Shown here: positions 4,975-19,443 of the stretch, piece by piece
Layout: the number at the start of each line of letters is the position of its first letter
Position numbering within the stretch: the stretch's first letter is position 1
IMG/VR virus record: IMGVR_UViG_3300037493_004714
Coordinates: 1-22,241 of that record
DNA length: 22,241 nucleotides
Direction: 5' to 3' (one strand)
Origin: a virus
The notes under the pieces: generated by a model
What the model was told of the DNA's origin: nothing
Database searches by the model: none
Seen by the model: only the letters and a program-made list of their open reading frames with translations
Program-made: the position numbers and the translations under genes

Positions 4975-6276
4975 ATGACAATGGAGAAAGATATACTAGA
5001 GTTCTTTGAAAATCCGATTACAAATAGAATGATTTTTGCGTATCCTGTACGGCATGGCAAAAGTACCATGTGCATGTTCTTAATGCCATTATGGAGGATA
5101 TTAACAAATCCTGAAGAGCATATTTTATTAGCAAGTAGAAGCAAAACATTTAGTTGCGAATGGGTTAGCCAAATTAGAAACATATTAGCACAATATGGAA
5201 AAGAATTAACTGGAGTGGAATTAGATCCAACAAAGAGAACAGAGTCCCATGTAAAGATTAAAGACCACAGGGGTGAGATTAGAGCAATAGGTGTGGGATC
5301 AGGTTGTGCTGGTTTTACTTCCACTCTAACTATTATTGATGATGTTTATGAAGATCAATTCCAAGCTAATAGCCCAACACAAAGAAAAAAGATAGAGGAC
5401 TGGCTTAGTGCTGAAATAACAAATAGAGCTACACCAATGGAAGGTAGAGAGCCCAAAATTTTAATGTGTGGCTCACTTAGACATCCAAGCGATATTAGTG
5501 CAACATTAGTAAAAAGTTCTATTGATTTACCAGACACAAAGAAATGGAATTATAAAAAGTATTCAGCAATACAAGATGATGGCACGGCATTGTGGCCTGA
5601 ACAATTTGGATTAGAAAGATTAGAAGATATTAAAAGAGAATACGAATTACAGGGACAGAGCTACTTATTTGAATCTTTATATCAATCCAATGCATGTGCA
5701 GATCCAAGTGCAATTGAATACCCAGCAGAGTATTTTGGAGATCATATATGGTATGATCATGAAGTAGAAAATGTATCATATACATTCGGGGCAGTAGATC
5801 CAGCCACAGGAAAAGGGGAGTCAGGAGACTACAGCTGTGCTATTTCAATGCTAATGGATAAAGATGGACATTGTTGGATTGATGATAGTTTATTACTCAG
5901 ATGTCCAATTACAGAGTTTGAATCCAGGACTGTCACATTTTTTGAAAAGAATTATCCAGATGCATTATTAGTAGAAACAAATATAGAAACTGGCTATGCA
6001 CAAAGAATGCCTGATTTGTTTTGGAAAGAGACTGGCAGACAGTTATATATGAATGTAATACATCATACTAAAGCAAAAGAAATAAGAATAAGACAAGCTT
6101 TAACTCCATTATTATATCAACACAAATTGCATTTTAGAAACAATAAAAACAATAGATTAGGGATACAACAAATAAAAGAATTGTGGAGTGGGACACACGA
6201 CGATTATCCTGATGCTATTGCTATGGCTATCGAGTTAATGAACACATTTCTAGGAAAGGAAATTAGTTTATGTTAA
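4975..6276 (+). CDS. terL: Terminase large subunit (ATPase and nuclease), at least 433 aa
   Basis: This is the DNA-packaging motor. From Met 4975, the Walker A motif is PVRHGKS at residues 24-30, Walker B is LTIIDD at 118-123, and the coupling motif is GSLRHPSD at 166-173. The RNase H-like nuclease carries acidic residues in GAVDPATGK (Asp275), LLVETN (Glu334) and HDDYPDA (Asp410/Asp413), so both domains look intact. The start is uncertain. ATG 4975 and 4981 lack a Shine-Dalgarno, and the frame is open back to 4897, encoding TPTLLGRIINPWFKTPSHV, which looks like genuine terminase N-terminus before the helix ahead of Walker A. An ATT at 4909 sits 8 nt after GAGAGG. The true protein is probably about 22 residues longer. 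It overlaps the next gene by 7 bp. Confidence 0.95.
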   Translation: MTMEKDILEFFENPITNRMIFAYPVRHGKSTMCMFLMPLWRILTNPEEHILLASRSKTFSCEWVSQIRNILAQYGKELTGVELDPTKRTESHVKIKDHRGEIRAIGVGSGCAGFTSTLTIIDDVYEDQFQANSPTQRKKIEDWLSAEITNRATPMEGREPKILMCGSLRHPSDISATLVKSSIDLPDTKKWNYKKYSAIQDDGTALWPEQFGLERLEDIKREYELQGQSYLFESLYQSNACADPSAIEYPAEYFGDHIWYDHEVENVSYTFGAVDPATGKGESGDYSCAISMLMDKDGHCWIDDSLLLRCPITEFESRTVTFFEKNYPDALLVETNIETGYAQRMPDLFWKETGRQLYMNVIHHTKAKEIRIRQALTPLLYQHKLHFRNNKNNRLGIQQIKELWSGTHDDYPDAIAMAIELMNTFLGKEISLC

Positions 6277-7106
6277 ATACTTATGTAATGGGGCATCCAG
6301 CCGTTGTGGTTTGCAGCCCAAATAGAATTGAATTGGTAAATGGACAATGGAAATTAGAAGATATAACTGTTGAGTTTATGCGTGCTAGATTGAATCTACA
6401 ACCACTATGGAATCGCAATCATCAAGAGTTAATAGTAGATGGATTAGAAGTGGGCAAGGCAAGGAATGCAGCGGCACAAGAAGCAGTTAAAGTTGGAGCA
6501 GAATACTTATTTTTTATTGATAACGATGTAATATTAAAACCACAGACACTAAATAGATTAGTATGGCTAGCAGACAACTGGCCTGATTATGGAATCTTTT
6601 CAGGAGTCTATTGTACTAAGACACCTAACTCTGTTCCATTGATATTTAAAAAGGTAGAGAATCCAGGACATGGGGAAGTGTTTTGGGATTGGACACCAGG
6701 AGATTTATTAAAAGATGATATATTAGGATGTGGCATGGGTTGTTGTTTAATAAGAGTATCATTATTAAAAGCAATGCTAGATAAATATCCTGATGCTCCA
6801 CTATTTGAAACTGTGCCACCAACTATTAATGGAAAAGGATGTAGTGAGGACATATGGTTTTGCACAAGAGCAAGATTAGAATTTAATTCAAAGATAATGA
6901 TTGATACAAGTTTAATATGCAATCATATAGATAAATTAACTGGGACTATGTATGGGTTGCCAGCAGATTCGCTACCAGCCAGAAACTATTACGCCAAGTA
7001 CCCACAGGAGTTGCCAAATGAAGAAGACCAAAGAAGAGAAGAGATTGAATGTACAACTGAAGGAAATGAAACAACTTCAAATACAGAATCAATCATCCAT
7101 AATTAG
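6270..7106 (+). CDS. GT-A-fold glycosyltransferase-like protein, 278 aa
   Basis: Residues 60-100 (VGKARNAAAQEAVK, then EYLFFIDNDVILKPQTL) match the family 2-like GT-A pattern: RN-A helix, then a strand ending in the metal/nucleotide-binding DxD, here Asp84-Asn85-Asp86. Downstream are GVYCTK (112-117), a GCGMGCCLIR strand (153-162), SEDIWFC (192-198, resembling the acceptor-side ED motif) and CNHI (217-220). No membrane segment is present. It probably transfers a sugar to phage structural proteins, DNA or a host surface component; donor and acceptor are unknown. ATG 6270 has AGGAAAGGA about 9 nt upstream and overlaps the terminase stop by 7 bp. The last 29 residues are charged and low-complexity, and are overlapped by the portal gene. 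Finding this gene between terminase and portal is unusual. Confidence 0.78.
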   Translation: MLNTYVMGHPAVVVCSPNRIELVNGQWKLEDITVEFMRARLNLQPLWNRNHQELIVDGLEVGKARNAAAQEAVKVGAEYLFFIDNDVILKPQTLNRLVWLADNWPDYGIFSGVYCTKTPNSVPLIFKKVENPGHGEVFWDWTPGDLLKDDILGCGMGCCLIRVSLLKAMLDKYPDAPLFETVPPTINGKGCSEDIWFCTRARLEFNSKIMIDTSLICNHIDKLTGTMYGLPADSLPARNYYAKYPQELPNEEDQRREEIECTTEGNETTSNTESIIHN

Positions 7107-8646
7107 CAATAGAATTGATAAATTAAAAAGCGATGGAGTTAGGTTCGAAGAAGATCCTATCTTTGGTTACCCTATTGATTGGAATTGGGATTTAGGTAGC
7201 AATGTTCCAGTATCCGCATTTCCAAGGGAAATGTTTGTAGATAGACCCACTACATTAAGAACACAAATTGCACAAGATGCAATTAGATTTCAATCAAGAG
7301 TTTGGTATGAAACCTGTCCACAATACTCAGGCGTTATTAACCATTTAAGAAATTTCATTATTGGCACAGGATTAACTATTGATGTTGTTACTAATAAGAA
7401 AGAAGCTGCTGGTGAAGAATTAGATACAGAGATAGATGAACAGGAAAAGCCAGATGAAGTAATAAGTGGTGAAGATGAATTGGCAACAGATGTCCAAGAT
7501 TACTTAGATGATTTTTGTAAATACAAACAGAACAAAATTCACAAGCGGTTATATGATACTGTTCTTAATTATTTTAGAGATGGGGAAGATGCCATTAGAT
7601 TGTTTCCTGATCAGGATGGAGTAAATGTTAGATCTGTTGATACAAGCACGATTAGGGGTCCTAACAATGAAATAACAGGACCTTGGTCTTATGGTGTTCT
7701 AACTAGTTATCCACATGATTATGAAGATGTAAAAGCATATCATGTTTGGTACGCAGATAACAAGCATGAGAATGTATCCCCATCGTTATTAAAAATGCTT
7801 AAGAGCGAAACTACTGGTAGCAATGTAAAACGGGGCGTTCCACTTGCTTATAGAATGCGCAAGCAAATAGAACAACTAATTAAATTAAGTGATTGTACTG
7901 CAATTGGTGAAGCTGCTAGACAGTCTATTCCATATTTAATTCAGTACCAATTACAACAGCAAGGAACAGTGCAAGGACAAATTAATAGTCGTGTTCCTAG
8001 TCCATATGGCACAAATGCATATGATAGTACTAATTCTAAAGGTGATGCAAAAACTAATATATTACCAGGAGAGATTAGACATATTGGCCCAGGTAAAGAA
8101 TTCGTGCAAGGACCAACTGGTAGCGATTCTACTTGGGCTTATCAAATGCTTTGCCAACAGATGGCTACAGCAGTTAATTGTCCAGCATGGATGATATCAG
8201 GTACAGCCAATGATACAAATTTTAGCTCTAGCTTAGTAGCCGAATCGCCATTAGTTAAATTAATACAACATTGCCAACAACAGGTTACTGATTATTATAA
8301 AGAGATAATGGAAGCAGTAGTTGAGATTGGTATTGCCAAAGGAATGTTCCCAATTGATACATTGGACTTAGTAGATATACATTGTGAATTACCAAGCCCA
8401 ATAGCCCGAAATATGAAAGATGAGATAGAAGTTGATATTAATTTAATGAAAGAGAATCTTTTATCACCACAGCATGTTTGTGCAAGAAATGGATTAGATT
8501 TTGAAGAAGAACAAGATTTAATTAAAATTGCTGAAGAATCAGGTTGGGAGAAACAACAGGAGATTGATCCCAATAGTGAAGAGGCAAATGCTAATAAAGA
8601 AGGAAATACTTCACCAGAAGCAGAAAAGAAAAAATTAGAGGATTAG
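7018..8646 (+). CDS. Portal protein, 542 aa
   Basis: The portal forms the dodecameric ring at the capsid vertex through which DNA passes. Evidence is the length, the position directly after terminase, and family-like segments: RTQIAQDAIRFQSRVWYETC (81-100), the VINHLRNFIIGTGLTID segment (106-122), RLYDTVLNYFRDGEDAIRLF (177-196) typical of the portal core, and a late NFSSSLVAESPLVKLIQHCQ stretch (about 401-420) before the crown region. The C-terminus is acidic and low-complexity. The frame is open from 6952, but I chose ATG 7018 because AGGAG at 7005-7009 lies 8 nt upstream. This gives an unusual 89-bp overlap with the glycosyltransferase-like gene. It most resembles lambda gpB/HK97-type long portals, with moderate certainty on subfamily. 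Confidence 0.88.
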   Translation: MKKTKEEKRLNVQLKEMKQLQIQNQSSIISNRIDKLKSDGVRFEEDPIFGYPIDWNWDLGSNVPVSAFPREMFVDRPTTLRTQIAQDAIRFQSRVWYETCPQYSGVINHLRNFIIGTGLTIDVVTNKKEAAGEELDTEIDEQEKPDEVISGEDELATDVQDYLDDFCKYKQNKIHKRLYDTVLNYFRDGEDAIRLFPDQDGVNVRSVDTSTIRGPNNEITGPWSYGVLTSYPHDYEDVKAYHVWYADNKHENVSPSLLKMLKSETTGSNVKRGVPLAYRMRKQIEQLIKLSDCTAIGEAARQSIPYLIQYQLQQQGTVQGQINSRVPSPYGTNAYDSTNSKGDAKTNILPGEIRHIGPGKEFVQGPTGSDSTWAYQMLCQQMATAVNCPAWMISGTANDTNFSSSLVAESPLVKLIQHCQQQVTDYYKEIMEAVVEIGIAKGMFPIDTLDLVDIHCELPSPIARNMKDEIEVDINLMKENLLSPQHVCARNGLDFEEEQDLIKIAEESGWEKQQEIDPNSEEANANKEGNTSPEAEKKKLED

Positions 8647-13601: not shown

Positions 13602-14003
13602 ATGGCTATTCAAAGATTAAGCGGTCAGACGGGTAGTGTTACCATCAGTGGAAACACATTTGGGGTAACTGAGTGGAAATTAAATAGAGCATATAACAAT
13701 GCTGATGTTACTGTTACTACCAGTGGTGCATGGGAAGAATTCTGTCCTATTACCCGAAGCTGGTCAGTAGAAATATCAGTACCATTTGATGTCAATGGGG
13801 CTAATATTGATGGAGCGTTTGATGTGGCATGTTTCGCTCTAGCTGGGGCTGATGCTCCAGTGGCTTGCACATTTTTACTAAAAGCTGGTAAGACTTATTC
13901 AGGCAGTGGATTACTTGAAAACTATACAGTTACTGATAGTGCTAAAGACGCATGTAGAGTAACTTTTAATATCAAGGGTACTGGTGTATTAACTAAAGTT
14001 TAA
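13602..14003 (+). CDS. Major tail tube protein, 133 aa
   Basis: The N-terminal SGQTGSVTISGNTFGVTEWK, then DVTVTTSGAWEEFCPITRSW, a YSGSGLLENYTVTDSAKDAC stretch and the closing VTFNIKGTGVLTKV match the tail-tube pattern (G-V-W-l strand, 'vT.sg', 'Y.G.g.l..y.v', 'f.i.G.G.lt'). The compact length of 133 aa is typical for small siphovirus tube proteins. It would stack as hexamer rings around the tape measure. It lies 5 bp after the preceding gene and directly before the G/GT chaperone gene, the canonical place. A GCGGGA site lies about 11 nt upstream of ATG 13602. Confidence 0.82.
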   Translation: MAIQRLSGQTGSVTISGNTFGVTEWKLNRAYNNADVTVTTSGAWEEFCPITRSWSVEISVPFDVNGANIDGAFDVACFALAGADAPVACTFLLKAGKTYSGSGLLENYTVTDSAKDACRVTFNIKGTGVLTKV

Positions 14004-14037: not shown

Positions 14038-14511
14038 ATGATTGATAATAACAATGTAGAATTGATCAGTCCACCAGGGTCTATTGTATTGGATAATAAG
14101 ACCTATTTAGTATCTAAGCCCACTGAACGGGATATATTTACTATATTTACAAATGCTAATAAAATGGCTAGAAAATTATTTAATCCCATTAAAGAAACAA
14201 TGGATAGTATAGAAGGATTAAATATAACGGATGAACAAAAACTAGCCATTTTATTACAAGCACACAAAGTAAAATCTAGTGGAGAGATTCCACTAGAATC
14301 TATTAGTGAATATTTAATGAGCCCACATGGTTGTCAATTCTATGCTTGGATTTTAATTAGAAAGAATCATCCTGAAGTAACTCTTGAAATGCTAAAGAAA
14401 TTCATTACAGATGAAAATGTAATATATATATTTGCAGAGTTAGATGAAGCGTCTGGCGTTAATCTAATTCACAAGAGCATGGAAAACAATGATTTTTTTC
14501 CAGTGCCCTAA
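14038..14511 (+). CDS. Tail assembly chaperone G (shorter product), 157 aa
   Basis: This is the upstream half of a lambda G/GT-type chaperone pair that binds the tape measure and tube protein during tail assembly. It is a soluble helical protein, with DKTYLVSKPTERDIFTIF near the start and GCQFYAWILIRKNHPEVTLE in the second half. ATG 14038 follows GAGAGGA at 14027-14033. The terminating codons ttt ttt cca gtg ccc taa carry the heptamer T TTT TTT at 14493-14499, seven codons' worth of sequence before the stop. Minus-one slippage there opens a long frame reaching the tape-measure start. Position between tube and tape measure is exactly that of known G/GT genes. Confidence 0.85.
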   Translation: MIDNNNVELISPPGSIVLDNKTYLVSKPTERDIFTIFTNANKMARKLFNPIKETMDSIEGLNITDEQKLAILLQAHKVKSSGEIPLESISEYLMSPHGCQFYAWILIRKNHPEVTLEMLKKFITDENVIYIFAELDEASGVNLIHKSMENNDFFPVP

Positions 14512-14732
14512 CAACGGGGCAGCATTGGATTGTTAATTATTGCAGTACTGATAGAGGTGCATTTTATGAGTCTTTAATGGTTAATTACTCATGGACTCCT
14601 GATATGATTAGTACAATAACAGTATTGCAATTAATGGCAATATGGGGGAGCAAGGAGCCAGAAGTTACAGCAGAAACTATGGCAGTATCAAAAAACAATA
14701 CTGAATTATTAAAGAGGTTTTTAAATGAGTGA
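14038..14732 (+). CDS. Tail assembly chaperone GT, -1 frameshift product, about 231 aa
   Basis: Ribosomes slipping back one base on T TTT TTT (14493-14499) continue in the -1 frame from codon TCC at 14499 to TGA at 14730-14732. The product has 154 residues of G plus about 77 further residues, starting SSALTTGQHWIVNYCSTDRG and including FYESLMVNYSWTPDMISTIT and LQLMAIWGSKEPEV. This second frame has no useful start codon with a ribosome site, is fully open, encodes protein-like sequence, and fills a 213-bp gap between G and the tape measure that otherwise lacks a gene. It overlaps the tape-measure start by 8 bp. G/GT frameshifting is conserved in siphoviruses; the frameshift here is inferred, and its efficiency is unknown. 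Confidence 0.85.
14493..14499 (+). promoter_or_regulatory. Programmed -1 ribosomal frameshift site (T TTT TTT)
   Basis: The heptamer fits X XXY YYZ in the zero frame (gaT TTT TTT cca), so both tRNA-Phe can re-pair after slipping. The zero-frame stop lies 10 bases downstream. I saw no strong stem-loop immediately 3' by eye; some G sites lack one. Confidence 0.82.
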
Positions 14733-16236
14733 ATTAACTGAATTAAGATTAGCAGTATTGACTCTAACCAATGCGTTCAATAATTCCACTACTGGAGCTC
14801 ATGGTGGTGGCAATGGTGGCAAGGGAGTGGCTGCTGGAGTGGCTGGTGGCGTTATTGAAGGTAGTATTAATTCTAGTGCCACTAGCAAGATGGGCAAAGA
14901 TATTACTGAAGCTGCTAGATTGATGGGTTCTAAGTTTGATAATTCCATTAAATTAATGGATGTTAGCTTTAGAAAATTCGTAGATTCTTTACACACAGTC
15001 TTTATCCAGGGATCAATTGATTTAAAAAGATTATTCAATCCTAAGACTTGGTCAAATGCTACAGACCATAAAAAAGTTGGTTCATTGCAAGCAGAATCTG
15101 CAAAGGCGTTTATGGATGGCGCTCAAAAGGAATATGATAAATTAGCCCATAAAGACCCCAAAGCTGAAGCTGAGAAAATAAAAGCATTAGCTCTTGAGGA
15201 AAAATTAAACAAATCCAAGAAAAGAGCAGAGGATGGTTGGAAAACTTTTAATGGATTAATTAATAAAGCCGCTTTAACTTTAACTGGATTTGTCGCTGCT
15301 GGCCTTGCTGATACCGTCCAGGGATATCAATTAGGATTTGAATTAAAGAGATTAGCATATCAGATTGCTGATTCTGTTCTACCTATTATCCTATCATTTA
15401 CCAGAAATTTAAAGTTATTAAATAACTATCTAGATAGGCAAAATAGAGATAGAAAGCCAGGGGAAATTGGTGGGCTTGGGGCGACCATTGCTACTGTAAT
15501 TGCTGCTCCATTTATAATTGCTATTGGCAAGCCACTACTTGGTTTGACAAAATTTCTTGGCACAGAGTTTAGCAAGACTATGGCAATGGTTTGGGGCAAA
15601 GTTGGTGGCTTGAGAGGTCTTGGACAGATGGTTGGCTCTCTAGGTGAAGGTACTAGTAGAGGCATGGGTATCGGCTCTAGAGTAGGTGGTACGGGAGTAT
15701 TGGGTGGAGCGGGATTAATTGGCTCTACTATTGCTCTTGCATTATGGACTCTATATGAATCTAAAAAGATTAAAGATTTTGATGATAACTTCAAGAAAAT
15801 GAAAATGGGCAAAGAGGGCTGGTATAGAGAGGATACCAAAGAGAGCTTAGCTAAAAAGAAAGCTGAAGCAGACGCGGTTGCAGAAACTCCTTGGAGATAT
15901 AGAAAGAAAGAATTAGGTAATGGGGATCGCCGTGAATATACCAAAGATGAAAAAGCGGATTTAGAAAAGAAATATTCTGCTGGTAAAAAAGATAAAGCTG
16001 AGAAAGAAAAAGCCGATAGACTTGAATCAATGTTAACTACCAGTTTTGGCAATGTTACCCAGCTGTGGGAAAAAATGCAAAGTGAGACAACAGCGAATCC
16101 AACATTAGATGTAGCTGAGAAATCATTGGATACTCTTGGTTATTTATTATTAAATATTATTAATATTAAAGAAATTCTAAGTAACCAAAAACAGACAACA
16201 GCAGAAGAATTATTAACAGATACCCCCGAACGGTAA
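14725..16236 (+). CDS. Tape measure protein, 503 aa
   Basis: The position directly after the G/GT chaperone gene and the composition identify it. The N-terminal helix (SELTELRLAVLTLTNAFNNS) is followed by a Gly-rich linker (residues 24-46). A helical part (FRKFVDSLHTVFIQGSIDLK) and a Lys/Glu/Ala coiled-coil stretch (about 125-178) come next. Hydrophobic segments lie near 181-200 and 248-280, a Gly-rich zone at 290-335, and another hydrophobic segment (GLIGSTIALALWTLYESKK) near 330-348; these may contact the membrane during DNA ejection. A Lys/Glu-rich tail follows. At roughly 1.5 angstroms per residue the tail would be about 75 nm, short for a siphovirus (inference). ATG 14725 follows GAGG at 14714-14717. 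Confidence 0.85.
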   Translation: MSELTELRLAVLTLTNAFNNSTTGAHGGGNGGKGVAAGVAGGVIEGSINSSATSKMGKDITEAARLMGSKFDNSIKLMDVSFRKFVDSLHTVFIQGSIDLKRLFNPKTWSNATDHKKVGSLQAESAKAFMDGAQKEYDKLAHKDPKAEAEKIKALALEEKLNKSKKRAEDGWKTFNGLINKAALTLTGFVAAGLADTVQGYQLGFELKRLAYQIADSVLPIILSFTRNLKLLNNYLDRQNRDRKPGEIGGLGATIATVIAAPFIIAIGKPLLGLTKFLGTEFSKTMAMVWGKVGGLRGLGQMVGSLGEGTSRGMGIGSRVGGTGVLGGAGLIGSTIALALWTLYESKKIKDFDDNFKKMKMGKEGWYREDTKESLAKKKAEADAVAETPWRYRKKELGNGDRREYTKDEKADLEKKYSAGKKDKAEKEKADRLESMLTTSFGNVTQLWEKMQSETTANPTLDVAEKSLDTLGYLLLNIINIKEILSNQKQTTAEELLTDTPER

Positions 16237-16253: not shown

Positions 16254-17138
16254 ATGAATACATTTCCAAAATTAGGATACACAGGAATCAGTTGTAACTT
16301 TAGCAATGATTCTAATACCGCTACTAGAGAATTCTATGTCAAAGAGGAAGTAGCTCTTAAGACAATGCTAGAGATATTATTAGGAAATCCATATCTCGGA
16401 ATTCTACCACATGCTCATCCGAGTTTCACAAGTTTTAGATGTTATGATGTAGCAATAACTCCAGTTAATGGTAAATCAGTCCAAGGTAGTAGAGATACTG
16501 ATACTGATATTCAGGGATTCTTGGATGCTAAAGAACATGTGGTTGGATATAAAGTAGTGGCTACATATAGACCTATTGCTGATGAGGGTAGTATAAAAAA
16601 TATTACTGAGGAGACTTTTGATTTCTCTGCTCAGACAATGTGCTTAATTGGCAATCAGATGGCAGCAGATAAAGCATCAGGATTGCATTGGGCTAGCGAT
16701 AATAAATTGTGTATTAATGTTAGAAGCATAGTTAAAATTATTCCTAAAGTAGATATCATCCAGAAAAGAATTTATTTACAAAATGTTCCTGGCTCTGTAG
16801 TATATGGTAAAATCGGTAGTATAAATAATGCTGATTTTTCTTTTACTCAATCTAGAAATGGTGGTAATCTTAATGAATGGAAAGCTGGGACTTTATTATT
16901 CCTGGGTTGTCCAACTACTAGAAAATTCAGATGGGATGGACAGTTTAATACTGAAGTAACTCTGAAGTTTGCAGCCAATGTATTCAGGGATAAAATATAT
17001 GGTGGTACAGAGGACTTCGTAACTTGGAATAGATTGTTTAGACCTAAAGAAGGTTATTGGGATAAAGTCCAGATTGGTACAGCCAACAAACTATTATATC
17101 CTGAAGTAGATTTCTCTATATTTAACACAATGAAATAA
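16254..17138 (+). CDS. Distal-tail-region protein candidate, 294 aa
   Basis: I do not recognise a named family. It follows the tape measure by 17 bp, the position of distal tail or tail-tip hub genes. The sequence is mixed, with beta-type segments (TSFRCYDVAITPVNGKS, VVGYKVVATYRPIADEGSI, VEVTL-like strand TEVTLKFAANVF) and a Trp-rich C-terminus (DFVTWNRLFRPKEGYWDKVQ). A CLIGNQMAADKASGLHWASD stretch lies near the centre. There is no signal peptide or membrane helix. The ribosome site is weak (GAAAG). The dit-like role is from context only; it could also be a hub protein. Confidence 0.65.
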   Translation: MNTFPKLGYTGISCNFSNDSNTATREFYVKEEVALKTMLEILLGNPYLGILPHAHPSFTSFRCYDVAITPVNGKSVQGSRDTDTDIQGFLDAKEHVVGYKVVATYRPIADEGSIKNITEETFDFSAQTMCLIGNQMAADKASGLHWASDNKLCINVRSIVKIIPKVDIIQKRIYLQNVPGSVVYGKIGSINNADFSFTQSRNGGNLNEWKAGTLLFLGCPTTRKFRWDGQFNTEVTLKFAANVFRDKIYGGTEDFVTWNRLFRPKEGYWDKVQIGTANKLLYPEVDFSIFNTMK

Positions 17139-17140
17139 AT

Positions 17141-18388
17141 ATGAATACAATTAACCAGGGCGGTAGATTAAATAGAGGCGACTATAACGATTTGGTCAAT
17201 CGGGCTGATAGCTCATCTAAGTTATCTTTTGCTGGTGCTGATGTTGGTGCCGCTGGTAATCATGTTGTATCCGTAGAGGAATATCAAGAGCCAGGATGTT
17301 GGGGAATGATTCTTGGTAATGATGCCACTTATCAGAAGGCTTATATCTGGAAAGAAGTGGTTGGGGCAGTAATTAGTGGTGAAGCTTCATCTTTTGATTG
17401 GCCTGAGGAGCCAAGAGCTTCTGATGTTAACTGGGATAGCCGAGGTGGGAATGCTCTAATTCTTAGTAGGGGAGAATGCAAAGATTTAGTTAGAGAGAAG
17501 AATGACTTAGCATTAGCAGTTGGACAGATTTGCTGGATTGTTCCATCCTATCTAAATAACCCCACTTGTGAATTTGTTACAGATGCTGAATTCTCAATGT
17601 GGGCGAGAGTTGGTGAACAGACTAGCGCAATGCGATCTAGTTTTGCCAGTGATGGAGAACATTATTTTCCATGGAAAGAAGTGCAACAAACTAGTTTTGG
17701 TACTTGGGTTGATACCGATAGGTATAAGTCAACTTGGACGGGTACTTATTTGAGAAATCCACTTAGATGCACAATGGATGCTACTTTACCAAAGAAAGAT
17801 GATATTGTCAGAGTATTCCCCGGAATGATGCAAAGTTATTCTGAAGGTGGATATTTAAAATTTGAGAACATATGGAATTTCAATGCTAGTGGATCAGCTT
17901 CTCCATTGATTGACTTCATGTTAAAGACTAACCTGACCCCAGGTAGCTCCGCTGATGCGTATTTATTAAAAGCAGATGGTACTCCTGATACTAGTGCGTC
18001 TACTATTGTTGTTCATGATTTACCAGAGACTACTAGGCGGGCATTTGGCAAAAATTCCCACTCCACCAACGCGGCAAAAGGTAAATGCTTTTATAATGAA
18101 TTAACCAGTAAATATGAAATAGTATCAATGATTGTTCTGGCTAAGTTATGCAAGGCATCTACTGTAGCATCATCCATTAATGCTACAGATGCTACTTTTA
18201 CTGTTGATAATATTGAAGTTTTAGATGATGGTCAGTCCCCAGTAGAAAGTAGCTCTGCTACTTTATCAGTGGTCAATTGGTGCGCCTGGCAAGCAAATGC
18301 TTCAGGTAAGCCAGTAGTTATTGTTCATTGGTCTAGCGGTACCTATGCGTTCTTGCAAGGAGGTTGCTTCCCAGCTCCAACTTCATAA
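17141..18388 (+). CDS. Tail-tip/baseplate-region protein candidate, 415 aa
   Basis: I do not recognise a family. ATG 17141 lies 2 bp after the previous stop, with no clear Shine-Dalgarno, so translation is probably coupled. The N-terminal part is polar (GGRLNRGDYNDLVNRADSSS); the middle has Trp-rich segments (FDWPEEPRASDVNWDSRGGN, SFGTWVDTDRYKSTWTGTYL); and the C-terminal region is beta-like (INATDATFTVDNIEVLDDGQ, then ATLSVVNWCAWQANASGKPV). Such long, mostly beta proteins after the distal tail gene usually form the tail tip, and this one may carry a host-recognition part. The stop overlaps the next start as TAATG at 18386-18390. Confidence 0.65.
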   Translation: MNTINQGGRLNRGDYNDLVNRADSSSKLSFAGADVGAAGNHVVSVEEYQEPGCWGMILGNDATYQKAYIWKEVVGAVISGEASSFDWPEEPRASDVNWDSRGGNALILSRGECKDLVREKNDLALAVGQICWIVPSYLNNPTCEFVTDAEFSMWARVGEQTSAMRSSFASDGEHYFPWKEVQQTSFGTWVDTDRYKSTWTGTYLRNPLRCTMDATLPKKDDIVRVFPGMMQSYSEGGYLKFENIWNFNASGSASPLIDFMLKTNLTPGSSADAYLLKADGTPDTSASTIVVHDLPETTRRAFGKNSHSTNAAKGKCFYNELTSKYEIVSMIVLAKLCKASTVASSINATDATFTVDNIEVLDDGQSPVESSSATLSVVNWCAWQANASGKPVVIVHWSSGTYAFLQGGCFPAPTS

Positions 18389-19443
18389 TGCCAGATCTAC
18401 CAGGTGGAAAACTTTGTTGTTGTTGTACCAATACTTGTGATTATGTCAAGTATTTGTTGAATACTGCAATGTTCCCCCAACCAGCATTGAAATATTCAAT
18501 AGAAGCTAAGCTTGATTGGGGTGGGACTTGGGATTATGACGCATATGGACAGATAGGATCTCAGACAGTATTGTGGTATCCTCATTTAGGGCCAGTAGTA
18601 ACTCTGATGGCTGGGCCGCCGCCATATAATGTTGGCTCTACCAACGCGGACAACCAATTAGCTCTTAATCATGACTTGTATCCAGAATGTGGAGGAGCAG
18701 TACGGGGCGCAGAAATTATATCCAATGGTGCTTATTTTTTAACTCAATGTGAAACTTATTATTTCTGGTACAATAGATGGTCTACTTGTGATAGCCCCGC
18801 GTCATCCGTCACAACTAATACAGTTAAATTTACTAATAACCATGCTACAGATTCTATTTGGGTTTGTCAAAATGATGGTACTGGAATAGAAATTACAGCT
18901 GGTAGCTCTCATACTTTTTCTGATGGATATAAATGGGTTGATGGACAAGGTGATAAAAACTCTGTAGCTAACTCAGCAAAAAATAAATATAAAGTCCAGA
19001 GTACCAGTGGATCTTGTGGTGTTTGCTGCGTATGGCCCTATACTTATGGTGATGAATTTGTTTTAAATTATGATACAGGTACTTGCACACATTGCTATAA
19101 TGATGTTCTAAATTGTGATGGCAAGCAATATTGTTTCTTTATTAGGTTAGCTTATACTTATGGTAAATTTACCATTTTAGTTGGCTTTGTGTTGTTAGAG
19201 CCAAGTGGTAGTACTGGCTGTCTAAAGAAATGTAATTGTTCTACTTTAATGGAATATGAGAGACTTGATGCTGCTAAGTATAAAGTCTATAAATATGAAT
19301 TAACAGTTACAGGATCATCCCCATCAGTCTGTGATTTACAATATAATGAGCCAAGTTATATATCTACTGCTGGAACGCTGACAGTACCTTGGCCAGTTAC
19401 TACTTCAGGAACAATAATGTCTTTAACACATGTAGACCTATAA
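18388..19443 (+). CDS. Cysteine-rich tail-region protein, 351 aa
   Basis: I do not recognise the family. ATG 18388 overlaps the previous stop as TAATG and is preferred to the in-frame TTG at 18364. Cysteines are clustered: KLCCCCTNTCDYVKYLL at the N-terminus, TSGSCGVCCVWPY, TGTCTHCYNDVLNCDGKQYC and TGCLKKCNCST towards the C-terminus. Between them are aromatic beta-like stretches (YFLTQCETYYFWYNRWSTCD). Such density suggests multiple disulfides or metal sites in a structural protein, probably at the tail tip or host contact. There is no signal peptide, so it acts in the virion. The end overlaps the next start as TAATG at 19441-19445. Confidence 0.65.
   Translation: MPDLPGGKLCCCCTNTCDYVKYLLNTAMFPQPALKYSIEAKLDWGGTWDYDAYGQIGSQTVLWYPHLGPVVTLMAGPPPYNVGSTNADNQLALNHDLYPECGGAVRGAEIISNGAYFLTQCETYYFWYNRWSTCDSPASSVTTNTVKFTNNHATDSIWVCQNDGTGIEITAGSSHTFSDGYKWVDGQGDKNSVANSAKNKYKVQSTSGSCGVCCVWPYTYGDEFVLNYDTGTCTHCYNDVLNCDGKQYCFFIRLAYTYGKFTILVGFVLLEPSGSTGCLKKCNCSTLMEYERLDAAKYKVYKYELTVTGSSPSVCDLQYNEPSYISTAGTLTVPWPVTTSGTIMSLTHVDL

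Follow-up and report, generated by a model that had tools for sequence, protein, structure and literature searches.

Frameshifting that yields the tail-assembly chaperones G and GT is widely conserved across long-tailed phages (PMC5009743). In the model for phage lambda, the tape measure is coated by G and the tube protein is recruited by GT, with the two chaperones kept at a set ratio (PMC5009743). We analyzed a virus record of 22,241 bases from IMG/VR, referred to in its entirety as the window, in which positions 14038-14732 very probably encode a G/GT tail-assembly chaperone expressed by programmed -1 frameshifting, with two products from one start. This assignment, which is based on sequence comparison, agrees with the original prediction for the locus and is supported by two conserved frames, in-phase heptamers and the gene order. 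The sequence family is new to the databases searched, whereas the frameshift system is well known, e.g. from phage lambda. The following features of the window were considered.

6952-8646: portal protein, with relatives in cellular genomes (L116-L125)
13602-14003, plus strand: major tail protein, the gene before the chaperone (PHROG phrog_1407, E 1.6e-11)
14038-14511, plus strand: G-like chaperone, zero-frame product of 157 aa (ATG 14038, TAA 14509-14511; AGGA Shine-Dalgarno sequence)
14493-14499, plus strand: slippery heptamer T TTT TTT (pattern X XXY YYZ), phased so as to permit a -1 shift, assigned by sequence and by the same phase and place as the heptamers of relatives
14499-14732, plus strand: T-like extension of 77 codons and TGA, read in the -1 frame, assigned by homology to the second frames of relatives and by codon score
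14038-14499 joined to 14499-14732, plus strand: predicted GT product of 231 aa, joined after residue 154
14500-14528, plus strand: candidate stimulatory stem-loop after the heptamer (UGCCCU/GGGGCA, extended by CCAG/UUGG)
14725-16236, plus strand: presumed tape measure protein of 503 aa, by its position after GT (Shine-Dalgarno sequence GAGGT)
16254-17138, plus strand: distal tail-region protein, BLASTP E 3e-19 to L106:6787-7788, in the same place in relatives

Major tail protein, G, GT, presumed tape measure and distal tail protein follow one another in a conserved order, with G/GT after the major tail protein and before the presumed tape measure, the latter being assigned by position. A homologue of the major tail protein occupies the same position in the related phage L097 (BLASTP E 8e-8). 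The match of the distal tail-region protein in L106 is the gene right after the tape measure of that phage. The 503-aa presumed tape measure itself showed no similarity to the 728-aa tape measure of L106 (BLASTP E 0.58). Terminase and portal of the window match phrog_38 (E 1.2e-60) and phrog_21 (E 1.7e-25), respectively. Neither an Rfam family nor a tRNA was detected in the window. Between terminase and portal lies a glycosyltransferase-like gene (6270-7103; Pfam Glycos_transf_2, E 5.5e-4, below the Pfam cut-off), and further upstream a thioredoxin-like gene (1885-2370; E 3.6e-4, also below the cut-off). The distal tail genes are followed by a gene for a cysteine-rich protein with CCCC near its start (18364-19443), which has no PHROG match.

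At the end of G, the zero-frame codons read GAT TTT TTT CCA GTG CCC TAA. The T7 run is therefore in the phase of a tandem -1 slip, as had been predicted; its distance to the zero-frame TAA is nine bases rather than the ten given originally. The -1 frame carries a TGA at 14490-14492 immediately 5′ of T7, opens at 14493 and then contains no stop until TGA 14730-14732, which is the extent first proposed. Its end overlaps the ATG of the next gene at 14725 by 8 bases. The gap of 213 bases from the G stop to the next gene start (14512-14724), the length of 231 aa for the joined protein and the join at residue 154 were likewise found as described. Gene callers would miss the long GT form.

Several measures characterize the -1 frame, which is coding-like and open into the start of the presumed tape measure gene. 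Only 9 out of 5000 dinucleotide shuffles of the region left this frame open. With a codon score trained on the genes of the window, the part of the -1 frame 3′ of the G stop reached 0.414. Among real in-frame slices the mean score was 0.508 (sd 0.135); among out-of-frame slices, none of which reached 0.414, it was -0.194 (sd 0.148). Codon use in the -1 frame 3′ of the G stop is coding-like. A scan of both strands of the window for genes of at least 90 aa that have an in-phase heptamer at their end together with a long open -1 frame singled out just two, G (14038-14511) and 2377-2682. The latter encodes a protein of 101 aa, probably including a membrane segment, and has two terminal A8 runs in -1 phase. 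A shift there would enter the next ORF (2673-2924), which has its own ATG, and an ordinary overlap is as likely for 2377-2924 as a -1 shift.

Related IMG/VR phages were reached via terminase and then portal alignments, and further ones by whole-record searches. The viral collection yielded no relatives when it was scanned with the single proteins G, capsid, presumed tape measure or terminase, a scan of the genome collection with the G alignment gave no match, and ten planctomycete genomes contained no G homologue at E <= 0.001. The relatives share the portal, the protein in the prohead-protease position and the capsid protein with the window. Several of them carry G homologues (E 5e-12 to 2e-15), and a profile of their G proteins matched the window G with 80.5 bits (E 1.4e-23). 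Every relative with a detectable G homologue displayed a canonical, in-phase -1 heptamer near the end of G followed by an open -1 frame. In L091 (with L090 and L112), L096 (with L093, L095 and L104) and L113, G GGA AAC directly precedes TAG; in L114/L115, A AAA AAC lies 18 nt before TGA. In the more distant L100, A AAA AAG is found 18 nt upstream of TAG and the -1 frame continues for 281 nt; the G of this phage is too distant to be detected by the G profile. Hence, homologous G, in-phase -1 heptamer and homologous second frame are kept in four relative lineages, and L100 has the same architecture.

Compared with the window, L091, L096, L113, L114 and L100 have homologous G, T, capsid, portal and prohead-protease-position genes (except that the G of L100 escapes the profile), an in-phase -1 heptamer and the same gene order. 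They differ in having G GGA AAC, A AAA AAC or A AAA AAG instead of T TTT TTT, a G protein that is only 30-32% identical and a different stem downstream.

Whether related phages conserve the second frame had been suggested as a check of the prediction; the four lineages do. A profile was built solely from the second frames of the relatives, leaving the window out. It scored 16.8 bits against the -1 frame of the window (E 7e-4), while the best of 2000 shuffles of this frame reached 7.5 bits and none of the other six-frame peptides of the window came near 16.8 bits. The alignment retains the pattern W/F-L...DR...Y...QL-A. At the sequence level, these comparisons establish the two-frame architecture and its homology.

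A second frame of this kind might also belong to a separate small gene, and in-frame ATGs are indeed present at 14577 and 14604. However, internal start codons of the -1 frame have a Shine-Dalgarno match of at most three bases, compared with AGGA for G and GAGGT for the next gene, in keeping with the claim that the frame has no start signal of its own. Moreover, both ATGs lie inside the conserved T domain and would forfeit its W...DR...Y part. As no start signal was found in the -1 frame, the separate-gene reading was rejected; we regard it as extremely improbable. Another alternative is an error in sequencing or assembly. Homopolymers are the commonest type of site for indel errors, and T7 occurs in a single record, no close relative bearing it having been found in the searches for relatives. 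One additional T would join the frames, so that a true run of T8 would make GT a single continuous gene. The original prediction had expected one continuous gene from T6 as well as from T8. Reading the sequence, this is true of T8, which fuses both frames, but not of T6, which leads into the +1 frame and its stop at 14534-14536. A T8 run is nevertheless very unlikely, since all relatives found, each from an assembly of its own, retain the two-frame arrangement with a heptamer where the frames meet, and a single GT gene would leave the phage with no separate G, unlike every relative.

The composition of T7 also calls for a comparison with slippage during transcription. A homopolymer of seven T gives a weak rU:dA hybrid and is a type of site known for polymerase slippage. 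Stuttering of RNA polymerase on T7 would generate a minority of mRNAs with one U more or two U less, which would encode the same GT fusion; transcriptional slippage is reviewed in PMC5009743. Against this stand the tandem-slip phase, which the relatives keep exactly, the stem conserved 3′ of the heptamer in the relatives and their G GGA AAC sites, which contain no long homopolymer. As G GGA AAC is unlikely to support polymerase slippage, slipping of the ribosome explains the family better, and a purely transcriptional origin of GT appears unlikely.

With programmed ribosomal frameshifting, most ribosomes would terminate at TAA 14509, yielding the 157-aa G-like chaperone, while a minority would slip back on T TTT TTT by a single base. 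In these, the tRNAs-Phe in the P and A sites could re-pair perfectly to UUU UUU, and the slipped ribosomes would continue in the -1 frame to give the 231-aa GT-like protein. By analogy to lambda, the G part would coat the tape measure, the T part would recruit the major tail protein, and both G and GT would leave the finished tail. We infer the slip, its rate and these assembly roles. Slip sites with the sequence U UUU UUU are uncommon. In E. coli, both this site and A AAA AAC are reported to shift far less readily than A AAA AAG (PMC5009743). The ratio of G to GT needs a low slip rate.

Downstream of the heptamer, UGCCCU/GGGGCA (14504-14521) could form a stem, and pairing of the loop bases with UUGUU (14530-14534) would give a compact pseudoknot that includes the zero-frame stop. 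The stem-loop at 14500-14528 ranks in the top 0.2-0.25% of window positions for folds of 24-30 nt, and among simple pseudoknots the pseudoknot score is in the top 0.22% of window positions, this measure having been chosen after the structure was seen. Compared with shuffles of itself, the stem-loop is weakly better (z -1.1 to -1.3). Stem-loop and pseudoknot are thus candidates for stimulating the slip.

A different stem characterizes the relatives. It starts after a six-base spacer, and codons around W-P pair with the D-R-P codons. In five sequences, 35 of 35 cells were paired, with compensating changes in two pairs; when the partner was slid along, pairing fell to 63% or less. Conservation and covariation of this stem are suggestive, given five sequences under protein constraint. 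It is located at L091:19605-19644 and in the same place in L096, L113 and L114, where it joins the start of the T domain to the DRP codons, and the Arg codon within it (CGG, AGG or AGA) tracks the opposite side of the stem. This conserved stem is absent from the window. Tentatively, T7 and the compact pseudoknot may be a lineage-specific substitute for G GGA AAC and the hairpin of the relatives that kept the two-protein output, with polymerase slippage perhaps adding to the fusion product; we consider this possible but doubtful.

Searches of protein families and structures placed the chaperone at a distance from described proteins. The window G matched neither a Pfam nor a PHROG family, and the annotated phage collection contained no match to G/GT. 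The N-terminus of the G protein of L096 weakly matched the tail assembly chaperone family PHROG phrog_1613 (E 0.014), a family that the G of the window itself does not match. An AlphaFold model of G (pLDDT 72) displayed a beta hairpin followed by helices. Phage proteins that are uncharacterised gave the best matches to this model (E 1.8e-7 at best), and a tail assembly protein of a Paenibacillus phage matched weakly (E 0.038); comparison with the PDB gave no useful match (best VIA-align Z 3.5, uninformative). The model of the T domain is helical (pLDDT 71).

As all ten portal relatives detected among 84,980 cellular genomes resided in Planctomycetota assemblies, about half of them Pirellulales, a planctomycete phage is the likely setting of the locus, and the window probably derives from a tailed phage of Planctomycetota bacteria. 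One of the host-linked loci, L125 (Planctomyces sp. MAG contig JAIXVG010000358.1), contains an ORF in the head module that adjoins the 3′ side of the capsid gene (L125:6798-7516). This ORF has an in-phase T TTT TTC at 7298-7304, 9 nt before its stop, and its -1 frame is open for 200 nt further; a frameshift in a head gene is possible there. As a relative of G/GT this two-frame gene was rejected, for it lies right after the capsid gene, is missed by the G and T profiles and matches no other locus compared.

The locus extends a known rule of tail assembly to a chaperone family that lacks a database entry, from phages whose host group has been little studied, and makes correct annotation of the G/GT gene in this lineage possible. 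Furthermore, window and relatives together provide a natural series of four slip sites, T TTT TTT, G GGA AAC, A AAA AAC and A AAA AAG, at one gene position.

In comparison with phage lambda, the V-G-T-H order corresponds to major tail protein, G, GT and presumed tape measure of the window. Both systems have a -1 heptamer in phase near the end of G, and the short and frameshift-extended products of lambda gpG/gpGT have predicted counterparts in the window. The proteins themselves differ. Between the G proteins there is no significant sequence similarity (hhalign probability 1%), and the T region comprises 77 codons of the 231-aa GT in the window, compared with 144 aa annotated for lambda T. The slip site is T TTT TTT in the window and G GGA AAG in lambda.
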